This document shows, piece after piece, positions 48,899-58,057 of a DNA stretch of 64,000 nucleotides. Positions within the stretch are counted from its first letter, which is position 1. Every line of letters begins with the position of its first letter. The stretch is from positions 124,001-188,000 of the forward strand of contig VGZC01000003.1 in the NCBI GenBank assembly GCA_016872725.1, read 5' to 3'. The position numbers and the translations under genes were made by a program. Source of the stretch: Planctomycetota bacterium. GTDB taxonomy: Bacteria; Planctomycetota; Planctomycetia; Pirellulales; Pirellulaceae. The notes under the pieces were generated by a model. That model ran no database searches. It was not told the DNA's origin and worked only from the letters and a program-made list of their open reading frames with translations.

Positions 48899-48945
48899 CG
48901 TGGGCTTCAGCCCACGCGCCTTCTCGCGTTGGCTCAAGCCGACGC
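48898..48945. repeat. pair of REP-like 20-bp palindromes
   Basis: GCGTGGGCTTCAGCCCACGC (48898-48917) is a perfect 9-bp hairpin with a 2-base loop, starting just before the stop of the upstream kinase gene. GCGTTGGCTCAAGCCGACGC (48926-48945) is a diverged version eight bases later. Exact or near copies are at 54389 and 54430. They could end the upstream transcript. Confidence 0.8.
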
Positions 48946-49910: not shown

Positions 49911-50609
49911 CTAGGCGTAGAAACCCGAGTCCATGCCGAGCTGCATTCGGAGTTCGTCGAATCCCCGGAAGTATTTCTCATTCGACGAATGGACGTGCTC
50001 GGCTTCCGTTACGAACCGGAGTTCGTCGTTGCGCCGCACCTGATAGCGCTGGAAGACGGCCTCGAACGGACGAAGCGGTTCGCCGTAGACGATCAACAAC
50101 TTGTGTTCGTCGAATTGGATCTCTTGGGGTGTCGCCGAGTTGATGACGGCGAGTCCGGTGCATCCGTCGTTCAGCAGGAGGTCCTCGAAGTCCCAAAGGA
50201 CGCTCTTGAGGACGGGCATGTCGATATGCTCGCGATAGAGATCCTCATGCCCGCCCTGTTGGCGCGTGTGGCTGGTTTCCAGCACCACGTCGACCTCGGA
50301 ACCCAGCGGTTCGAGCAGGTCGAGGAACAGGTCGAACATGTTCTCGCGCGACGCGGAGGCCATCAGCACGGGAATGCGGCTCTTGGTTTCCTCGTCCTCA
50401 TAGATGTCGTGCCGGTATCCCTGCGCCGGAACGACCTGCAAGTCGTACGAGGGCCGGATCGCGTCGGTCAACTGGAATTGGCCGTATTTGGAGATCCGGA
50501 GGTGGGCTTCGAGCTGTTCCTCACTGAGCCGCTCGAAACTGCTCGGAGCCGTTTCGGCGGGCATTCCCTCATGGAAGACATTGCGGAACAGACGCTTCAG
50601 GAAGCCCAT
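49911..50609 (-). CDS. conserved protein of unknown function
   Basis: 232 residues, soluble, with no recognised motif. Sequence shows an N-terminal basic segment (MGFLKRLFRNVFHEG), then DIYEDEETKSRIPVLMASAS, FDLFLDLLEPLGSEVDVVL, LLNDGCTGLAVIN and a C-terminal FRGFDELRMQLGMDSGF. The composition looks like a globular alpha/beta protein, possibly planctomycete-restricted. GAGG seven bases upstream supports ATG 50609. It converges on the lipoprotein gene with 77 bases between stops. Confidence 0.7.
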   Translation of the reverse strand: MGFLKRLFRNVFHEGMPAETAPSSFERLSEEQLEAHLRISKYGQFQLTDAIRPSYDLQVVPAQGYRHDIYEDEETKSRIPVLMASASRENMFDLFLDLLEPLGSEVDVVLETSHTRQQGGHEDLYREHIDMPVLKSVLWDFEDLLLNDGCTGLAVINSATPQEIQFDEHKLLIVYGEPLRPFEAVFQRYQVRRNDELRFVTEAEHVHSSNEKYFRGFDELRMQLGMDSGFYA

Positions 50610-51124
50610 CGTCAACCTCGATACTCTGCCAGTCGATCCGGAATCCGGGTCCGGAGGGCGGTGGGGAAGGACGCTCTAACCTAGGTCACGGTTCGCACGC
50701 ATGACGTTCGGTCATCCTACGGGTGGATCGTGTGACGCGAGGCTCCAGGAATTCGGCGAAGCAACGGACGTCGGCACGGACCGTGGGTCAATGGGGTGGG
50801 ACGGTCGGGGCAGCCGCTCGGCGATCGGGTTTCCCATCGGTCAGTCGATGCGCCGCGACGGAGTACCGCGGCGAGCGGGCTCCGTCGAAACCGGTGTGCC
50901 GGGTCGTTGTCCCGGCCGTCTACTGGAAATCTAGCATCCGGTCCGATGCGCCCCGAACTGTCCAGCCGCCTCGGCGGCAATTCGTCGAGCCTTCAGCCGG
51001 TCCAATTCAGATTGCGCAAGCTATTCCGCGAAAACCGATGTGGTGGCTCGTTTGGACTCTCTGCTATATTGACTGCCCATGGCACGGTCAGGGACGCTGC
51101 CTGAGTTCGTAAGGGGGGATCGGG
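50610..51124. other. divergent intergenic region upstream of the transglutaminase gene
   Basis: 515 bases between divergent starts. On the plus strand TATATT (51065-51070) is the only -10-like element close to the transglutaminase start; the -35 positions (GGTGGC or TGGTGG) are poor. TGGCACGGTCA near 51080 resembles half a sigma-54 site but lacks the -12 GC. No RNA gene or ORF of note was seen. Confidence 0.35.
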
Positions 51125-53041
51125 ATGGATCGGTCGGCATGGAGCCACGGACGGCGGAGGCGCGCCGCGTGGGTGGTCGCATGGTTCGCGGGCATCGTGG
51201 TGTTCGTCGGCTGCCGCCCCGATCCTGACGCCGCGAAAGGGCGAGCCGCGCCGAAGACCTCCGACGATCGGGCGGAGCGCCGCCCGATTTCGGATGCGCG
51301 GGAGTCGGCGAGCCAAGCCGCTCAGGTCGATCAAGGCGCGCCGGGCGCGCCAAGCGGGAACGGCATCCAGGCGAAAGGCGGAGCGGCCGATCCACGTTCG
51401 AACGGGCCCGCCGCGAACGGGCCCGCCGCGAACGGGCCCGCCGCGAACGGGCCGGCGCCGCGTCCCGGCGAGAAGGGCGAGTCCCTAGGGGATTCGGCCC
51501 CGGGGACGCATTCGGAATCGCATTCCCAAGCGAATCCCGGCGGGCGCCCCGCGCCCGATCCGACACGCTCGCTCCTCGCGGAACCGGTTGCGGGACCGCC
51601 GATCGACGAAGTGTGGATGGCGTATTACCTTGGAACCGCGAAGGTGGGGCACGCGGTGACGCGCGTGTACGAGGTCGCGCCCGAGTCGCTCCCGGGCGAA
51701 TCGCCGAACGACGCGTACAAGCGGACGGAGATGGAGCAGGTCATCACGTTGCTGCGGAATGGAGACCGGGTGACGCAGCAACTGCGGTTGGCGAGTCTGG
51801 AATACGCCGACGGCCGCGTCGCCGAATTGGGAACATCGATGAGCGACGGGGGGCCCGAGGTCACGACGAGCGCTCGGCGCGACGGACCGCAATTGCACGT
51901 CGTGCTCCGAGCGCCGGGCAGTTCGAGCCTTCAGTCGATTCCGTGGAACGACGGGTGGCGAGGGTTCTTCGCCGATCAGCAGGTCCTATCGGCCAAACCG
52001 CTCGCGCCGGGCGATCGGTGCGCGTTCACATCGTTCATTCCCGTCTTGAACATCGTCGGCGAGACGACCTTGTCCGCCGTCGATTGGGAAGAGGCGGAGA
52101 CGCCGTTCGGTCGGGAACGTCTCCTGCGGATCGACTCGCACGTTTCCGCCGACCAGCTCCAACTCGATTCGACCCTTTGGTGCGACGCGCTCGGAATCAT
52201 CCGCAAATACCACATGCCCCAAGCCGACATGACGGCGTACCGGACGGTTCGCGAGCTGGCGCTCGCCGCAAACGTGGACGTCGATCTCTACGCGATGATC
52301 CATGTCACGGTCTCCAATCCGATCCCCGATCCGCATCACAAACGGAACGCCGTGTATCGAGCGAGGCTCAAGGGTGACAAAGACCCGTCACGCGTGTTCG
52401 TGAATGACGGTTCGCAGTCGATCGCGCGAGTCGATCGATCGACGGTCGACATCACCGTGCGGCGCGTGGAGCCCGGATCGCTGGACGTTCCGGTCGGCGG
52501 CGCCGCGCCGGGACCCGCCGACCTCGAGCCGAACAGCCTCATACAGAGCGACGACGAGGCCGTGCGGCGCATGGCCGAGGCGATCGACGCCGGTTCGGAC
52601 GACGCGTGGGCCCTGGCCGCGGCGTGCGAACGGACCGTGCATCAGGCGATCGAACGCAAGGCGTTGACCGAGGCGTTCGCGTCGGCCGCCGAAGTCGTCC
52701 GCTCGCGTACCGGGGACTGCACCGAACACGCCGTCCTGCTCGCCGCCCTGTGCCGAGCCCGCAAGCTGCCCGCCCGCGTCGCCACGGGGTTGGTCGCCTT
52801 CCGGGACGGTTACGCGTTCCATATGTGGAACGAGGTTTGGATCCGCGACCGCTGGGTGCCGCTCGACGCCACGCTCGGACTCGGCGGCGTCGGTGTCGGC
52901 CATATCAAACTCGGCATATCCGATCTCAACGGCGTCAGCCCGTTCGCGGCGCTCGCCCCCGTCCTCGAAGTCATGGGTTCGCTGGAACTCGACGTCGTCT
53001 CCTTCGAGCAGCCGAACCGGTCGATCCGCGCCATTCCCTAG
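51125..53041 (+). CDS. lipoprotein with transglutaminase-like domain
   Basis: 638 residues. A signal ending at GIVVFVGC gives a lipidated Cys near residue 30, then about 130 residues of low-complexity linker with four NGPAA repeats. A large central domain follows, then a transglutaminase core with Cys532 in SRTGDCTEHAVLLAAL, His in FHMWNEVWI and Asp in WVPLDATLG, a complete papain-like triad. It sits 134 bases upstream of the ubiquitin-like gene on the same strand. Transglutaminase-fold proteins can cut or form isopeptide bonds, so a role in the cassette is possible, though its export makes direct action on cytoplasmic conjugates unlikely. Confidence 0.85.
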   Translation: MDRSAWSHGRRRRAAWVVAWFAGIVVFVGCRPDPDAAKGRAAPKTSDDRAERRPISDARESASQAAQVDQGAPGAPSGNGIQAKGGAADPRSNGPAANGPAANGPAANGPAPRPGEKGESLGDSAPGTHSESHSQANPGGRPAPDPTRSLLAEPVAGPPIDEVWMAYYLGTAKVGHAVTRVYEVAPESLPGESPNDAYKRTEMEQVITLLRNGDRVTQQLRLASLEYADGRVAELGTSMSDGGPEVTTSARRDGPQLHVVLRAPGSSSLQSIPWNDGWRGFFADQQVLSAKPLAPGDRCAFTSFIPVLNIVGETTLSAVDWEEAETPFGRERLLRIDSHVSADQLQLDSTLWCDALGIIRKYHMPQADMTAYRTVRELALAANVDVDLYAMIHVTVSNPIPDPHHKRNAVYRARLKGDKDPSRVFVNDGSQSIARVDRSTVDITVRRVEPGSLDVPVGGAAPGPADLEPNSLIQSDDEAVRRMAEAIDAGSDDAWALAAACERTVHQAIERKALTEAFASAAEVVRSRTGDCTEHAVLLAALCRARKLPARVATGLVAFRDGYAFHMWNEVWIRDRWVPLDATLGLGGVGVGHIKLGISDLNGVSPFAALAPVLEVMGSLELDVVSFEQPNRSIRAIP

Positions 53042-53175: not shown

Positions 53176-53478
53176 ATGACTGATACCGGATCGTCGTCCA
53201 ATGTGCCTTCGAGGCGGACGCGCGTCACGTTTCTTGACCAGACCGGCTCGAAATCGGTCGAGGCGGAGATCGCCGAATCGGTTTCCGTGAAGCGGATCCT
53301 GCCCAACATCATCACCCGCATGAATCTGCCGGTCATGGGGCCGGACGGGCAGCCGATGAGCTACAGTCTCGATCACAAGGAGGGGGGCAATCGGTTGCGG
53401 GAGGATCAGACGCTCATCGACGCGAGCGTACGTGACGGGGATCACTTGATTGTGTACCCTGAGATTGTGGCCGGTTGA
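53176..53478 (+). CDS. YukD-like ubiquitin-fold protein (Ubl)
   Basis: 100 residues with a beta-grasp ubiquitin-like fold: RRTRVTFLDQTGSKSVEAEI forms the first hairpin, then SVSVKRILPNIITRMNLP for the helix, and RLREDQTLIDASVRDGDHLIVYP for the last strands. It ends in EIVAG with Gly as the final residue, giving a single-glycine tail and not the usual diglycine. In the described prokaryotic systems (Iyer, Burroughs and Aravind), such a Ubl is activated by the linked E1 and passed to the E2. GGAGG precedes the ATG by about ten bases. It is the first gene of the five-gene cassette. Confidence 0.85.
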   Translation: MTDTGSSSNVPSRRTRVTFLDQTGSKSVEAEIAESVSVKRILPNIITRMNLPVMGPDGQPMSYSLDHKEGGNRLREDQTLIDASVRDGDHLIVYPEIVAG

Positions 53479-53598
53479 GCCGTTCGCCGGGTGGCGTGGT
53501 CGGCACGGGGACATTCGACCGGGCCGCTGGTGCCGGCAGCTCGCCGGGCCCGCTCGAACGGACTCCAAGGCATCGACCGCGTCCAAGGTGATCGATCG

Positions 53599-54369
53599 AT
53601 GATGCGTGAATCGCCTCGAACCCGCCGACTCCGGTCCGATTTCCAAGCGATGCGGCAACTGGCCTTGGAGAGCACGATCCTGGAGTTCTCCTATCGCGTG
53701 GTGGCGGACAACGAGCCGCCCGAGGCGTATCTCCTGCGGTTCCGGGGTGTCGGACTGGCGCGCGACGAGCGGTCGGGCGAGGTCGTCGAAAGGAATGATC
53801 ACGAGGTTTCGGTCGAGCTTGGCGCGTCGTACCCCCGATTGATGCCGGAGCTGGTTTGGAAAACGCCCGTGTTCCATCCCAACATTTCGGCGAACGGCGT
53901 GGTCTGTCTCGGCGGATATTCGACGCACTGGGTACCCAGCCTGCGGCTCGTCGAACTCTGCCGCATGCTCTGGGACATGATTCGGTACGCGAATTTCGAC
54001 GAGGAGAGCCCGTACAATCGGGAGGCCGCGATCTGGATCCGCCGCTGGAATCGGCACCGACTCCCCCTCGATGATCGCCCGCTCCGCGATCTCTTCCAAG
54101 GAACACCCCCGTCACCCGCCGAACGATCCGAGTGCATTCCCGATCGGCCGATTGAGCGAGACGGCGCGGGCACGGCCCTTGCGTCCAACGTGGAGGCCGG
54201 CGGGGCGAGGGTCGGCGTGACGTTCGCCGATTCGAGCGGTCGAGCGGGCGATGGGGAGGGCGACGTGGTCATTGTCGATGGGGGCGAATCGATCCGGGTC
54301 GGTGCGGTGGACACGGCGGCGCGGCGCGGCGAATGGACGGAGGAACCGGAAATCGTTTTCCTGGACTAG
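53599..54369 (+). CDS. E2-like ubiquitin-conjugating enzyme
   Basis: 256 residues. The UBC fold covers about 1-160: LRSDFQAMRQLALES, YPRLMPELVWKTPVFHPN, NGVVCLGGYSTHW and LRLVELCRMLWDMIRY. The canonical HPN tripeptide (93-95) and the catalytic Cys103, eight residues after Asn95, have the same spacing as eukaryotic E2s (HPN-x7-C). The last 95 residues are a predicted disordered region (Ser/Pro/Glu-rich, ending EPEIVFLD) with no counterpart in minimal E2s. AAGGTG eight bases upstream selects ATG 53599. It follows the Ubl gene by 120 bases. Confidence 0.85.
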   Translation: MMRESPRTRRLRSDFQAMRQLALESTILEFSYRVVADNEPPEAYLLRFRGVGLARDERSGEVVERNDHEVSVELGASYPRLMPELVWKTPVFHPNISANGVVCLGGYSTHWVPSLRLVELCRMLWDMIRYANFDEESPYNREAAIWIRRWNRHRLPLDDRPLRDLFQGTPPSPAERSECIPDRPIERDGAGTALASNVEAGGARVGVTFADSSGRAGDGEGDVVIVDGGESIRVGAVDTAARRGEWTEEPEIVFLD

Positions 54370-54388
54370 CGCCGGGACCGTCGACGTA

Positions 54389-54449
54389 GCGTGGGCTTCA
54401 GCCCATGCGGCGCCGGGAGAGGTGACGTGGCGTGGGCTTCAGCCCACGC
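54389..54449. repeat. two REP-like palindromes between the E2 and E1 genes
   Basis: GCGTGGGCTTCAGCCCATGC (54389-54408) and GCGTGGGCTTCAGCCCACGC (54430-54449), each a 9-bp near-perfect hairpin. They are the same element as at 48898 and are spaced 41 bases apart. They occupy the 185-base gap in an otherwise compact cassette, and could attenuate or stabilise the transcript there. Confidence 0.85.
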
Positions 54450-54554
54450 GGCCCCAGAACCGGGACGGTACGAAAAGGCCGATCGAACGCGTACTTCAAG
54501 GTCTTGCCGACGCTCGCCGCACAGGGTCCGGCGCACGCCGCGAGGATGGGCTCG

Positions 54555-55727
54555 ATGTCGGACGGCCGGTGGTTCATCGACGACGACGACCGGTACGCCC
54601 GCCTCCGTTTGATCGGATGGTGGGATCAGGGGAAGCTGCGCCGCGCGAAGGTATTGGTCGTGGGGGCCGGCGCGTTGGGCAACGAGGTGCTCAAGAATCT
54701 CGCGCTGGTCGGCGTCGGCCACGTGTGGCTCTGCGATTTCGATCGGGTCGAGCCGGACAATCTGGCGCGATCGGTCCTTTTCCGCGCCTCGGACCGCGGG
54801 CGTCCGAAAGCGGAAGTCGCCGCCGAGAGCCTTCGCGGATTGAACGCGGACACGCGAGTCGAGCCGATTGTCGGCGACGTCATCACCGATGTGGGACTCG
54901 GCCTCTTCCGGGACGCCGACGTGGTCATCGGCTGCCTCGACAATCGCGAGGCCCGACTCTGGGTGAATCGGTGCTGTTGGAAGACGATGACGCCCTGGGT
55001 CGACGGAGGCATACAGGAGATCAACGGCGTCGTCAAGGTTTTCGTGCCGCCGTTCAGCGCGTGTTACGAATGCGCGATGACCGACAACGACTATCGACTG
55101 ATCCAGCTCCGATACAGTTGCCCGATGCTGCGGCGGGAGGAGATGCAAGCGGGCAAAGTCCCCACCGCGCCGACCATCGCGTCGATCATCGGCGGCTGGC
55201 AGGTTCAGGAAGCGCTCAAGCTGATCCACGGACTCGACGTGCCCGCGGGCGAGGCGATCGTCCTCAACGGCGTCGCCAACCAGTTCTATCGCACGAAACT
55301 GCCGTTCCGCGACGATTGCCTTTCGCATGAGACCTACGACGAGATCCGCGAGGTCGATCTGTCGAACGAGGCGACGGCGGACGAGTTGTTTCGCGCGGTC
55401 GGCGCTGTCGAGCTCGAACCGGCGCCTCGATTGCGACTGGATCGCGACCTCGTGACGGCCATCGCCTGCGCGCCGTGCGGATTCCGGAAAGACGTGTTGG
55501 GCACCGCGTATCGCGTGCCGCGCGAGTGGACCGAGTGTCCGCGATGCGGCAAGGGAGCGAGGCCCGAGCTCGTGCATGAAGTCACGGGAGGCTCGGCGCT
55601 TGCCCGCCGACGATTGGCCGACCTGGGGGTTCCGCCTTACGATATCGTGCGCGTGGTGGTGAACGGACGCGAACGGCACGTCGTCCTGGCGGCCGACCAG
55701 GGGAACCGCGGCGAACGGGGGAGATGA
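54555..55727 (+). CDS. E1-like ThiF-family adenylyltransferase
   Basis: 390 residues. The ATP-binding Rossmann fold has VVGAGALGNEVLKNLALVG (about 37-42) and LCDFDRVEPDNLARSVLF, the ThiF/E1 signature. Zinc-type Cys pairs are CYEC (171-174), CAPC (about 306) and CPRC (about 330), the last two in a C-terminal extension not found in ThiF. SCPMLRREE followed by APTIASIIGGWQVQEALKL matches the region around the catalytic Cys in E1-like enzymes, but the catalytic residue is not certain. GAGG nine bases before ATG 54555 decides the start. The stop overlaps the JAMM gene's first ATG. Confidence 0.88.
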   Translation: MSDGRWFIDDDDRYARLRLIGWWDQGKLRRAKVLVVGAGALGNEVLKNLALVGVGHVWLCDFDRVEPDNLARSVLFRASDRGRPKAEVAAESLRGLNADTRVEPIVGDVITDVGLGLFRDADVVIGCLDNREARLWVNRCCWKTMTPWVDGGIQEINGVVKVFVPPFSACYECAMTDNDYRLIQLRYSCPMLRREEMQAGKVPTAPTIASIIGGWQVQEALKLIHGLDVPAGEAIVLNGVANQFYRTKLPFRDDCLSHETYDEIREVDLSNEATADELFRAVGAVELEPAPRLRLDRDLVTAIACAPCGFRKDVLGTAYRVPREWTECPRCGKGARPELVHEVTGGSALARRRLADLGVPPYDIVRVVVNGRERHVVLAADQGNRGERGR

Positions 55728-55729
55728 CG

Positions 55730-57217
55730 ATGGCGGAGGAGGGCGACATCCGATTCGGCGAACTCGCCGAGGAATCGCCGCGGCCCCGCGGCCGACCCGA
55801 GGAGAATCCGCATCTGGCCGTCGTGACGCTGGGCCGTCCCCGCGAGTCGGATCCGACGGTCTATTTCGATCTGGACGCGCTGCGGCAAATGGAGCTCCAC
55901 GCCGCAACCGACGTCGATGTCGAACTCGGCGGCGTCATGCTCGGAGGCCAATACGTCGACGCGGACGGGCGGCCGTTCGTCATCGTGACGCAGGCGATCG
56001 CGGCGGCGCATTACGAGAGCACGCGGGGAAGTTTCAAGTTCACGCACGACACATGGTCCGACATCGCAAGGCAGCGGGCCGAGCATCCGTCCGAGTGGCG
56101 TGTCGTGGGCTGGTACCATACGCATCCCGGCTGGGGCATCTTCCTGTCGGACATGGACCGGTTCATTTGCGACCATTTCTTCAGCCGGCCGCTCGACATC
56201 GCCCTCGTCATCGATCCGCGCCGCGCCGATCGCGGCGTGTTCTGCTGGAGTTCCCAACCCGAAGCGCCGCGCGAGACGGTCCGCTTGGGTGGATTCCATA
56301 TCATGTCCTCGATGTTCCGCGGACACGAATTGGCCGCGCACGTTCATCAATGGGAGTCGGAAATGAGTATGGCTGGTCGACCGGGTTCCGAGTGGGGGCC
56401 GCGCGCCGGGGCGATTCCGCCCGCGCCGCCGCCTTCGCCGATGCCGTTCTGGTTTCCTCTGTCGCTCGCGGGTTCGTTCCTGCTCCAGTTCCTCCTGCTG
56501 GCGATGATCGCGTGGCGCGTCTTGGGATTGCCGGGAATGCCGGAAACGCTCGTACCCTCGCCGACCGATCACTCGGAAGGTCCCTCGCCGATCGCCGATG
56601 CGTCGCGGAACGCGGCGGGCCTCGCATCGAGCCGCGAGGTCGACGCCAAGCTGGCCGTCCTGGACGGCCTGATCCAAACGCAAGGTGGTCCGGAACATGC
56701 CGCCACGGCGCTCGCGGAACAGGCTCGGCGCAACGCGAGCCTAGAAGCCTCGATGCTCGGGCTCGACGCCGCGCGGGCCGAAGCCGAGCGCCAAGCCGCT
56801 CAATCGGCGAAGGAGTCGCGGGAATCCAAGGACACGCTCGAACGGGTTCGCGACGATCTGTCGAGCCGGCTCGCCGAAGCCCAATCCGAACTCCGCGCCC
56901 TCAAGGAACGCAACGCGGCGTTGGGGATCGAGCTCGCGCGGTATCGCGGCGAAACGCCTTCGAACGGCGCCGATGGCCCGTCGACGGCCGATGGCCCGTC
57001 GACGGCCGATGGCCGAACGGCATCGCTTTCCCACCGCACCGTCTGGTGGCTCACGGCCGGCGGACTCGTCCTGTTGTTCGGTTCGGCCGCTCTGGTCACC
57101 GGCGTGTTGACGCTCAGCCGGCGACGGGCGACGATCGATTCGGCGAGCGTCGATCATCCGGGCGCGGACCGATCGAGCCCATCGGCGGCGAGTTCCCATT
57201 CCCATGCGCCCAGGTAA
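55730..57217 (+). CDS. membrane-anchored JAMM (JAB/MPN+) isopeptidase
   Basis: 495 residues. The metalloprotease domain has Glu65 in VELGGVML and the zinc signature WYHTHPGWGIFLSDMD (His130, His132, Asp143), the complete JAMM motif found in deubiquitinases such as Rpn11. After it come TM1 (about 240-267, PLSLAGSFLLQFLLLAMIAW), a coiled coil (about 300-407), a short STADGP repeat, and TM2 (about 438-463). The catalytic domain should be cytoplasmic. It likely removes the Ubl from targets or trims it. ATG 55730 has GGAG seven bases upstream; ATG 55724 overlaps the E1 stop. Confidence 0.88.
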   Translation: MAEEGDIRFGELAEESPRPRGRPEENPHLAVVTLGRPRESDPTVYFDLDALRQMELHAATDVDVELGGVMLGGQYVDADGRPFVIVTQAIAAAHYESTRGSFKFTHDTWSDIARQRAEHPSEWRVVGWYHTHPGWGIFLSDMDRFICDHFFSRPLDIALVIDPRRADRGVFCWSSQPEAPRETVRLGGFHIMSSMFRGHELAAHVHQWESEMSMAGRPGSEWGPRAGAIPPAPPPSPMPFWFPLSLAGSFLLQFLLLAMIAWRVLGLPGMPETLVPSPTDHSEGPSPIADASRNAAGLASSREVDAKLAVLDGLIQTQGGPEHAATALAEQARRNASLEASMLGLDAARAEAERQAAQSAKESRESKDTLERVRDDLSSRLAEAQSELRALKERNAALGIELARYRGETPSNGADGPSTADGPSTADGRTASLSHRTVWWLTAGGLVLLFGSAALVTGVLTLSRRRATIDSASVDHPGADRSSPSAASSHSHAPR

Positions 57218-57253
57218 TGCACCGATCTTCGACACGCGGCGGGGAACGGGTCC

Positions 57254-58057
57254 GTGGACGGTCTGATCGCTTTTCTGTTCCTGATCGCGGCCATCTGGTT
57301 CTTCTTCCGCGCGTTTGGCGGAAGCGGGGGGCCGGTGCGGCGCGACGTGTGGCGCGCGCTGGCTCGCCGCTTCGAAGGCGCCGTCGACAAGAGCCGATGG
57401 CGCGGCGCGAGCGGCGTACGTTTCCGTTACGCCGGATCGGACGTTTTCGTCCGCCAGTCGGCTCGAGGCCGCACGGTCGCGACCGATGCCTGGTTCGATT
57501 GGCCCGACTCGGACTTGCGGCTCCACATCGTCTCGTCGTCCACATCGATCTCATCCGAATCGGTGCGCGGATTGCGGGTCTTCGAGAACCCGCGCGATCC
57601 GTTCCATTGGCGGTTCCGCGTCTTCGCGAACCACACCGACCGCGCCGACGGACTGCTCGGCGAGACCGTCAAGTGGCAGATCGAGCAACTTCGGCAGCAT
57701 TTTCCGAATCGGGGCGTGGAGATCCGCGTCGCGAACGGGCGGCTTCTGGTCCGCAAACGCGTCCTGTTCCACCAACTCTCCGCGCTCGAACGGTTCACGA
57801 AGGACGCCGTGCGGCTCTACGACCAGCTCCTCGTTTCGCAGGCCGACGGCATCGAGATCATCGCGACGGGGACCGAGCCCTCGGGGGTGATCGACTGCCA
57901 GATCTGCGGACAACCGATCGCGTCCGATCTCGTGCGATGCCGACGGTGCGGAACGCCCCATCACCGCGAGTGCTGGGAATACAACGGCGCCTGTTCGGTC
58001 TTCGGCTGCCTGGAAACCGTCTGCGTGCCCGCCCGGGACGGGTCGATCCCCGGATAG
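57254..58057 (+). CDS. membrane-anchored protein with C-terminal RING-like finger (E3 candidate)
   Basis: 267 residues. An N-terminal membrane helix (MDGLIAFLFLIAAIWFFFRAFG) is followed by a globular middle domain I cannot name. The C-terminus is a treble-clef cluster: Cys215, Cys218, Cys229, Cys232, His237, Cys240, Cys247, Cys252 in DCQICGQ, RCRRCGTPHHREC and CSVFGC. This matches the prokaryotic RING family found in Ubl operons, and is the best candidate for the ligase (E3-like) component. The start is GTG 57254, 36 bases after the JAMM stop. Confidence 0.8.
   Translation: MDGLIAFLFLIAAIWFFFRAFGGSGGPVRRDVWRALARRFEGAVDKSRWRGASGVRFRYAGSDVFVRQSARGRTVATDAWFDWPDSDLRLHIVSSSTSISSESVRGLRVFENPRDPFHWRFRVFANHTDRADGLLGETVKWQIEQLRQHFPNRGVEIRVANGRLLVRKRVLFHQLSALERFTKDAVRLYDQLLVSQADGIEIIATGTEPSGVIDCQICGQPIASDLVRCRRCGTPHHRECWEYNGACSVFGCLETVCVPARDGSIPG

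Follow-up and report, generated by a model that had tools for sequence, protein, structure and literature searches.

Could a bacterium use ubiquitin-like tagging for its ordinary cell upkeep? This question is raised by a stretch of 64,000 nucleotides from a Pirellulaceae bacterium (Planctomycetota; GenBank assembly GCA_016872725.1, contig VGZC01000003.1, positions 124,001 to 188,000 of the forward strand), referred to as the window, in which five neighboring genes on the + strand (53176-58057) encode a ubiquitin-like modifier (Ubl), an E2 conjugating enzyme, an E1, a predicted membrane JAMM isopeptidase and a predicted membrane RING protein. To our knowledge, the bacterial E1-E2-JAMM-Ubl operons that have been worked out by experiment (Bil, Bub) act in phage defence. 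The modifier described here is about as conserved as PII, and the system around it has the look of a membrane-based, mostly inherited and non-mobile one. The observed gene content, the kept catalytic residues, the pattern of conservation, the segments predicted to span the membrane and the shared chromosomal site lead us to consider it rather probable that the operon performs reversible Ubl conjugation, with the last step and its reversal at the cytoplasmic membrane, as a chromosomal and mostly vertically inherited cell function and not as a mobile phage defence. If true, ubiquitin-like tagging for ordinary bacterial cell upkeep, with real E3 networks, becomes a directly testable question, and the presence of the operon in the complete genome of Singulisphaera acidiphila DSM 18658 (L151) makes it testable in a named strain.

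Gene content of the cassette

The cassette was read from the list of open reading frames (ORFs) and a Pfam profile search, in which all five proteins scored above the family cut-offs. The Ubl modifier (53176..53478, +) is a protein of 100 residues of the YukD family (2.5e-15), ending in ...YPEIVAG with the terminal glycine exposed. The E2 (53599..54369, +; 256 residues; UQ_con, 4.8e-12) carries the HPN motif and a catalytic cysteine, and its tail ends in EIVFLD; the listed ORF starts at GTG 53491, and the relatives align from about ATG 53599, from which the catalytic residue is numbered as Cys103. The E1 (54546..55727, +) consists of 393 residues with a single ThiF adenylation domain (2.4e-57), its start being most likely ATG 54546 rather than 54432. 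The JAMM gene (55724..57217, +), whose start overlaps the E1 stop in the letters ATGA, encodes a predicted membrane isopeptidase of 497 residues, composed of the JAMM domain, a transmembrane segment (TM), a coiled-coil-like stretch and a further TM; its JAB match (4.7e-5) reaches 23.6 bits against a cut-off of 22.5, and the zinc signature E...HxHPx6SxxD is present in full. The last gene (57254..58057, +) encodes a predicted membrane RING protein of 267 residues, a candidate E3, with eight Cys/His ligands and a Prok-RING_1 match (1.3e-10). A first-pass annotation, made from the sequence alone, had claimed the single strand, the HPN and Cys of the E2, the complete JAMM signature and the RING-like zinc finger; coordinates, Pfam families and residues bear out each of these, and its reading of the locus as a bacterial Ubl-E1-E2-JAMM-RING cassette of a predicted class is supported. 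The predicted membrane helices of the JAMM and RING proteins go beyond that annotation.

Operons of a YukD-like Ubl, E1, E2, JAB and RING were reportedly predicted by Burroughs, Iyer and Aravind in 2011. The window has the same gene content as this class, with all five genes together on one strand and the same set in relatives, the RING family here being Prok-RING_1; the window operon is a new, reduced member of the predicted class. For the membrane anchors, the glycine boundary, the shared site and the tail motif set out below, no description was found in the accessible literature, which comprised few subscription papers and in which no study recognizable as devoted to this family was listed apart from those cited here; Burroughs 2011 may report them, as well as the Cys-less E2 and the second JAMM. 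That the class was known from comparative genomics, as the annotation had stated, agrees with the accessible part of PMC4197634, which, citing Burroughs 2011, names planctomycetes among others as carriers of related operons.

Relatives and distribution

A scan of named genomes gave 106 Ubl relatives, from which 80 loci were kept. The core set recurs in most of these loci, all from other genomes and some ending at contig edges; this recurrence is more than chance, and core residues are kept in nearly all sequences (71-89 per family). The loci come from Pirellulaceae, from other genomes labelled Planctomycetaceae, and from Isosphaeraceae (Singulisphaera acidiphila, Tautonia). Nearly all are planctomycetes and many are Pirellulaceae, in line with the likely planctomycete origin proposed earlier; the loci labelled otherwise are single metagenome-assembled genomes assigned to Wallbacteria, Riflebacteria and Abditibacteriales. 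The accompanying statement that such a set is rare did not hold, given the 106 relatives in one genome collection and a Ubl in half of the genomes of the family: among 98 genomes, the own one included, the Ubl profile matched 31, namely 30/60 of the own family (counting the own genome and G020, which has a divergent match only) and 1/38 of the other families of the order. The RING protein search in the same genomes matched 35 (34/60 and 1/38, respectively). Across 392 genomes of the phylum the Ubl profile matched 30, many of them with divergent families.

Part of the loci have fuller operons with two additional genes. One encodes a small JAMM protein and mostly lies between E2 and E1 (29 ORFs); the other, upstream of the RING gene, encodes a second E2-like protein (23 ORFs). 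The window locus has neither; a second E2-like gene was found nowhere in its own genome, and the small JAMM was sought within the locus. The nearest relative, L077, has no small JAMM in its locus and retains the second E2, and a stepwise loss of the extra genes in the window is therefore plausible. In the tree this pair lies near the expanded operons, with weak deeper nodes (0.45, 0.72). An ancestral minimal form was considered for the window and is not favored, the Cys-less E2 being retained in its sister L077 (local support 0.94).

Conservation of the modifier and the enzymes

The C-terminal glycine is present in 70/70 distinct Ubls with the LDHKE-type core motif. The protein ends at this glycine in 40 of them, and in the other 30 it continues for 1-215 unconserved residues; an alignment of 20 sequences has 46 invariant columns. 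Three loci have in-frame Ubl-E2 fusions (L098:8301-9239, L099:8971-9909, L108:8965-9903), with VAG retained at the junction. Such a glycine boundary would be the pattern expected from selection on a conjugated C-terminal glycine. The sole Ubl found with Arg in place of the glycine is an orphan at the usual site (L131:7790-8074, ending in ...VAR), in a locus without E2, E1, JAMM and RING; it stands outside the 70, its core motif differing by one residue. Distant Ubl families likewise have ragged tails and mostly read ...PEITAG, with E1 and often JAMM adjacent, or ...STFVAG, with E2, E1 and mostly JAMM adjacent (a small number of ORFs there have other endings). The second Ubl family with mostly ...PEITAG ends is found in loci among L160-L173; these loci are short, and no E2 was matched in them.

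The catalytic Cys is present in 79/79 sequences of the E2 family (E2a), the window included, and the HPN motif retains its His in 78 and its Asn in all 79. The RYSCP-type Cys is found in 78/80 E1s; of the two without it, one is a truncated ORF. Invariant Cys pairs at the E1 C-terminus are presumably zinc-ribbon-like. The JAMM signature is kept in 70/71 membrane JAMM and 34/34 small JAMM proteins. Structure prediction, a check that the first-pass annotation had proposed, was applied to the E1 and the RING protein. The AF2 model of the E1 (pLDDT 89.7) is ThiF-like, with ThiF as best Foldseek match followed by UBA3/NAE and UBA5 chains; by profile against solved structures eukaryotic E1s come first (UBA7, 7e-47; ThiF, 1e-31), which is a ranking and not a phylogeny. 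Hydrophobic windows in the E1 (one in 16/79, two in 5) were considered as TMs and are read instead as buried strands.

The second E2-like protein has a Cys at the catalytic column in 1/28 sequences and is thus Cys-less. An acidic-hydrophobic C-terminal motif like DILFIE occurs in 74/79 E2s and 20/28 second E2s, compared with means of 1.6 and 0.2 (maximum 7 and 2) in shuffled tails; elsewhere it is found in 1/31 small JAMM, 0/73 membrane JAMM, 0/91 RING and 0/82 E1 proteins. It resembles SUMO-interacting motifs in shape. Like the predicted anchoring of the RING protein here, eukaryotes have membrane-tethered RING E3s, and they pair a catalytic E2 with a Cys-less E2 variant (UEV). The second E2-like protein is like a UEV in lacking the Cys, and in that respect only; by analogy, the fuller operons, with a catalytic E2 beside a Cys-less one, may hold a comparable pair, which the window copy lacks.

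Predicted membrane segments and fold of the RING protein

Membrane segments were predicted for the JAMM and RING proteins by a plain hydropathy count. For the membrane JAMM this gives two hydrophobic segments in the window copy and in 55/67 relatives, a single one in 9 and none in 3. The RING protein has one, near the N-terminus, in 73/86 sequences, none in 8 and two in 5; a mean of 3.12 Lys plus Arg stands in the 15 residues that follow it. Its layout comprises the N-terminal TM, a TtfA/CCDC47-like domain at about 26-198 and the RING at 215-252. In the AF2 model (pLDDT 88.6), residues 26-198 match TtfA with a VIA-align Z of 15.4 (rmsd 2.9 over 157 residues) and three translocon chains, which we take to be CCDC47, with Z of 10.0-11.3; type III chaperones and YbjN follow at Z 7.7 and less, in a comparison where the lack of further folds carries no weight. 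The RING end matches RING E3s, at a middling Z of up to 6.4. Eight RING ligands are kept in 86/89 relatives, and some loci have two or three RING genes in tandem.

Based on these features, we hypothesize the following course of reaction. The E1 would adenylate the C-terminal glycine of the Ubl and then take the Ubl onto its own Cys, from which the E2 would accept it on Cys103. The RING protein, with its predicted anchor in the membrane, would recruit E2~Ubl, and its TtfA/CCDC47-like domain may bring in clients that lie in the membrane or are associated with it. Held by its two predicted membrane helices, the JAMM protein would cut the tails off Ubl precursors that have them and would strip the Ubl from conjugates. 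We infer the chemistry, the E3 role and the client domain.

Rates of evolution and RING proteins across the phylum

In loci found via the RING protein, which were not selected on the Ubl and give a rate order free of such selection, mean identity is 0.776 for the Ubl, 0.584 for the E1, 0.511 for the E2, 0.395 for the JAMM and 0.260 for the RING protein. In the 80 loci found via Ubl patterns the Ubl value of 0.775 is biased; PII has a mean identity of 0.78 there, the Ubl being about equally conserved. A modifier that stays constant beside a fast-changing RING protein fits a hub whose substrate receptors change.

Among 294 genomes of the phylum, Prok-RING_1 occurs in 24/28 genomes with an E2 (one of the 28 E2 matches, in G159, lying below the family cut-off) as opposed to 27/266 genomes without one, and ten or more such proteins are found in 8/28 versus 1/266; these counts ignore relatedness, and the RING numbers, taken from the best 21 candidates, are to be read as at least. 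In 14 well-known genomes used as controls, one sub-threshold RING match and no E2 were obtained. Nine RING-rich genomes (G115, G230, G245, G260, G273, G286, G215 (family f40), G308 and G162; loci among L266-L292) were searched deeper and hold 21-74 Prok-RING_1 places each; seven have one E2, G162 has two, and in G215 none was found. The RING proteins of these genomes are of varied make-up, some with hydrophobic segments and one PDZ-like by eye.

Chromosomal site and inheritance

In many loci and many genera the operon stands in a common order: a divergent core gene, a transglutaminase or GNAT gene, the operon, NUDIX, cobalamin adenosyltransferase (CobAT), PII and GlnD. In the window the divergent gene (49911..50615, -) and the transglutaminase-like gene (51125..53041, +; Transglut_core, 2.4e-16) precede the Ubl. 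Both were considered as parts of the cassette and rejected. The divergent gene, for which even an E limit of 10 gave no Pfam match and which is clustered in 45/80 loci, is found in 97/98 genomes and marks the locus. The transglutaminase gene is present without the operon: it lies beside the divergent gene in 16/17 Ubl-less genomes examined, in several of which it adjoins NUDIX or CobAT, and G018 retains a lone RING gene there. Of the 30 genomes with a strong Ubl match, the own one included, 18 carry the Ubl no more than 12 kb from the divergent gene. On a tree of the divergent gene, presence of the operon (32/61, i.e. the 30 strong Ubl genomes together with G041 and G055, whose E1, JAMM and RING genes lie on broken contigs, with G020 scored as absent) requires 6 changes, 2 of them forced by starred branches, versus 20.6 in shuffles.

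No Ubl was found in plasmids by the Ubl search, the E1 not having been used there, and none of 600 pattern matches in viral contigs was confirmed. Against phage records the E1, the only component searched there, gave 20 matches, none of which reached 60% identity or spanned 80% of the query. On these searches, carriage by phage or plasmid was rejected.

Discussion

Several observations weigh against a conserved, vertically inherited conjugation system with an E3 at the membrane. The Ubl ends in a single Gly and not in Gly-Gly. In the RING, no Pro is found at either end between the last two ligands in 81/81 readable cases, and Arg or Lys directly follows the last ligand in just 11/81. The match of the middle domain to the TtfA/CCDC47 fold shows no function, and the charge comparison around the TM of the RING protein is weak, since few residues precede this TM (median start 5). 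At the level of genomes, the 27 E2-less genomes also carry Prok-RING_1, and G215 has 43 such proteins. As regards the site, 12/30 genomes have the Ubl either far from the divergent gene or on a different contig; three of these (L078, L084, L091) still have NUDIX and CobAT downstream, contig ends explain just some of the 12, G052 and G064 plainly carry it at another place, and G019 has the genes split, with 2.5 Mb between the Ubl and the JAMM, second E2 and RING genes. The tree of the divergent gene uses a marker linked to the operon site, and the presence-on-tree test is therefore not independent. Finally, operon distances track those of core genes just moderately (rho 0.53-0.61, versus 0.77-0.80 between core genes).

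Of the alternatives, the one that survives best accepts Ubl conjugation and takes the RING protein for a structural zinc protein or a conjugate receptor instead of an E3. It would explain why the relatives do not conserve the Pro and basic linchpin that typify RING E3s, and the best solved-structure profile matches, which are plant cellulose synthase RINGs and then PHD and other zinc fingers, point the same way. Pro and linchpin are not universal among RING E3s. Speaking for an E3 are the hydrophobic residue of the E2 contact, which is Ile or Val just ahead of ligand 2 in 81/81 readable cases, the fit of the RING part to RING E3s, middling as it is, and the strong association of RING and E2 at the level of genomes. 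We regard a non-E3 role as improbable, though as a serious competitor.

Somewhat less probable still, in our estimate, is an anti-phage conjugation like that of Bil or Bub, often kept at a stable site, in which conjugation would disable phage parts. Bub is an operon of Ubl, E1, E2 and JAMM, with inactive and active adenylation domains in its E1; the window differs from Bub in the single ThiF domain of its E1. Bil shares with the window Ubl, E1, E2 and JAMM, conjugation and precursor trimming; according to the accessible part of PMC11354881, BilA carries a pair of Ubl domains, and BilD combines one inactive and one active adenylation domain with a Cys domain, unlike the one Ubl domain (100 residues), the one ThiF domain (393 residues), the RING protein and the predicted membrane anchors of the window. 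Conjugation in CBASS is likewise placed in phage defence by the accessible part of PMC10097602, and this record of the experimentally studied bacterial Ubl operons is joined by the patchy presence of the Ubl in the family, its location away from the core-gene site in the 12 genomes, and RING proteins that evolve fast and stand in tandem. The E1 also has hits in PADLOC, to E1-E2 models (best 7e-19) and to BilD (2.5e-9); its hit to NCBIfam 6A-MBL cap2_3 (1.7e-14) falls far short of the cut-off of that model. Against a defence role stand the core-gene neighborhood in many genera with presence clustered on the tree, the lack of Ubl in the plasmids and viral contigs searched, the lack of PADLOC matches for Ubl, E2 and RING (in a scan of the cassette without its flanks), and a modifier about as conserved as PII.

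That the Ubl is a non-conjugated scaffold or sulfur carrier, like YukD in type VII secretion or ThiS/MoaD, is suggested by the Pfam name YukD, by the E1 fold nearest to ThiF and by B. subtilis YukD, reported as not conjugated in the accessible part of PMC1779556, and appears highly implausible in view of the E2 catalytic Cys in 79/79 sequences, the JAMM and RING partners, the glycine boundary with ragged tails, and the fact that no secretion ATPase (FtsK/EccC) or WXG100 gene was recognized among the 25 recurring neighbor clusters listed, no model search having been made for them.

For the preferred reading, i.e. reversible conjugation at the membrane as a mostly inherited cell function, a reconstituted parallel is archaeal. 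According to the accessible part of PMC5654768, the E1/E2/srfp/Rpn11 system of Caldiarchaeum subterraneum has been reconstituted, and Rpn11 trims pro-ubiquitin and removes conjugates. Like the window, it has separate Ubl, E1, E2, RING protein and Rpn11/JAMM; unlike the window, it is archaeal, with a Gly-Gly modifier and a small RING, and that part of the source mentions no membrane parts (PMC5654768).

As to its purpose, our guess is the regulation or quality control of membrane or envelope proteins, drawn solely from the membrane segments of the RING and JAMM proteins, the TtfA/CCDC47-like domain, and the M48 and MMPL neighbors described below. A more specific proposal, which we put forward tentatively, is a housekeeping Ubl system in which a slowly evolving Ubl and one E1 and E2 feed membrane RING ligases for quality control of membrane proteins or the translocon, and the membrane JAMM reverses this; in some planctomycete families it may have grown to a eukaryote-like hierarchy of 21-74 RINGs per single E2, apart from phage defence.

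Neighboring genes and repeats

In Isosphaeraceae, a CAAX/Ste24-type M48 protease gene (L150:13207-14538 and, approximately, L151:13124-14458) lies just 3' of the JAMM gene, 19-42 bases after it in 4/5 loci where clustered, and in several of these operons it is followed by an MMPL gene. In the window, a REP-like palindrome, GTGGGCTTCAGCCCAYG, occurs at 48900-48916, 54391-54407 and 54432-54448, the latter two inside the gap between E2 and E1, with 5 matches on both strands versus 0.01 expected.

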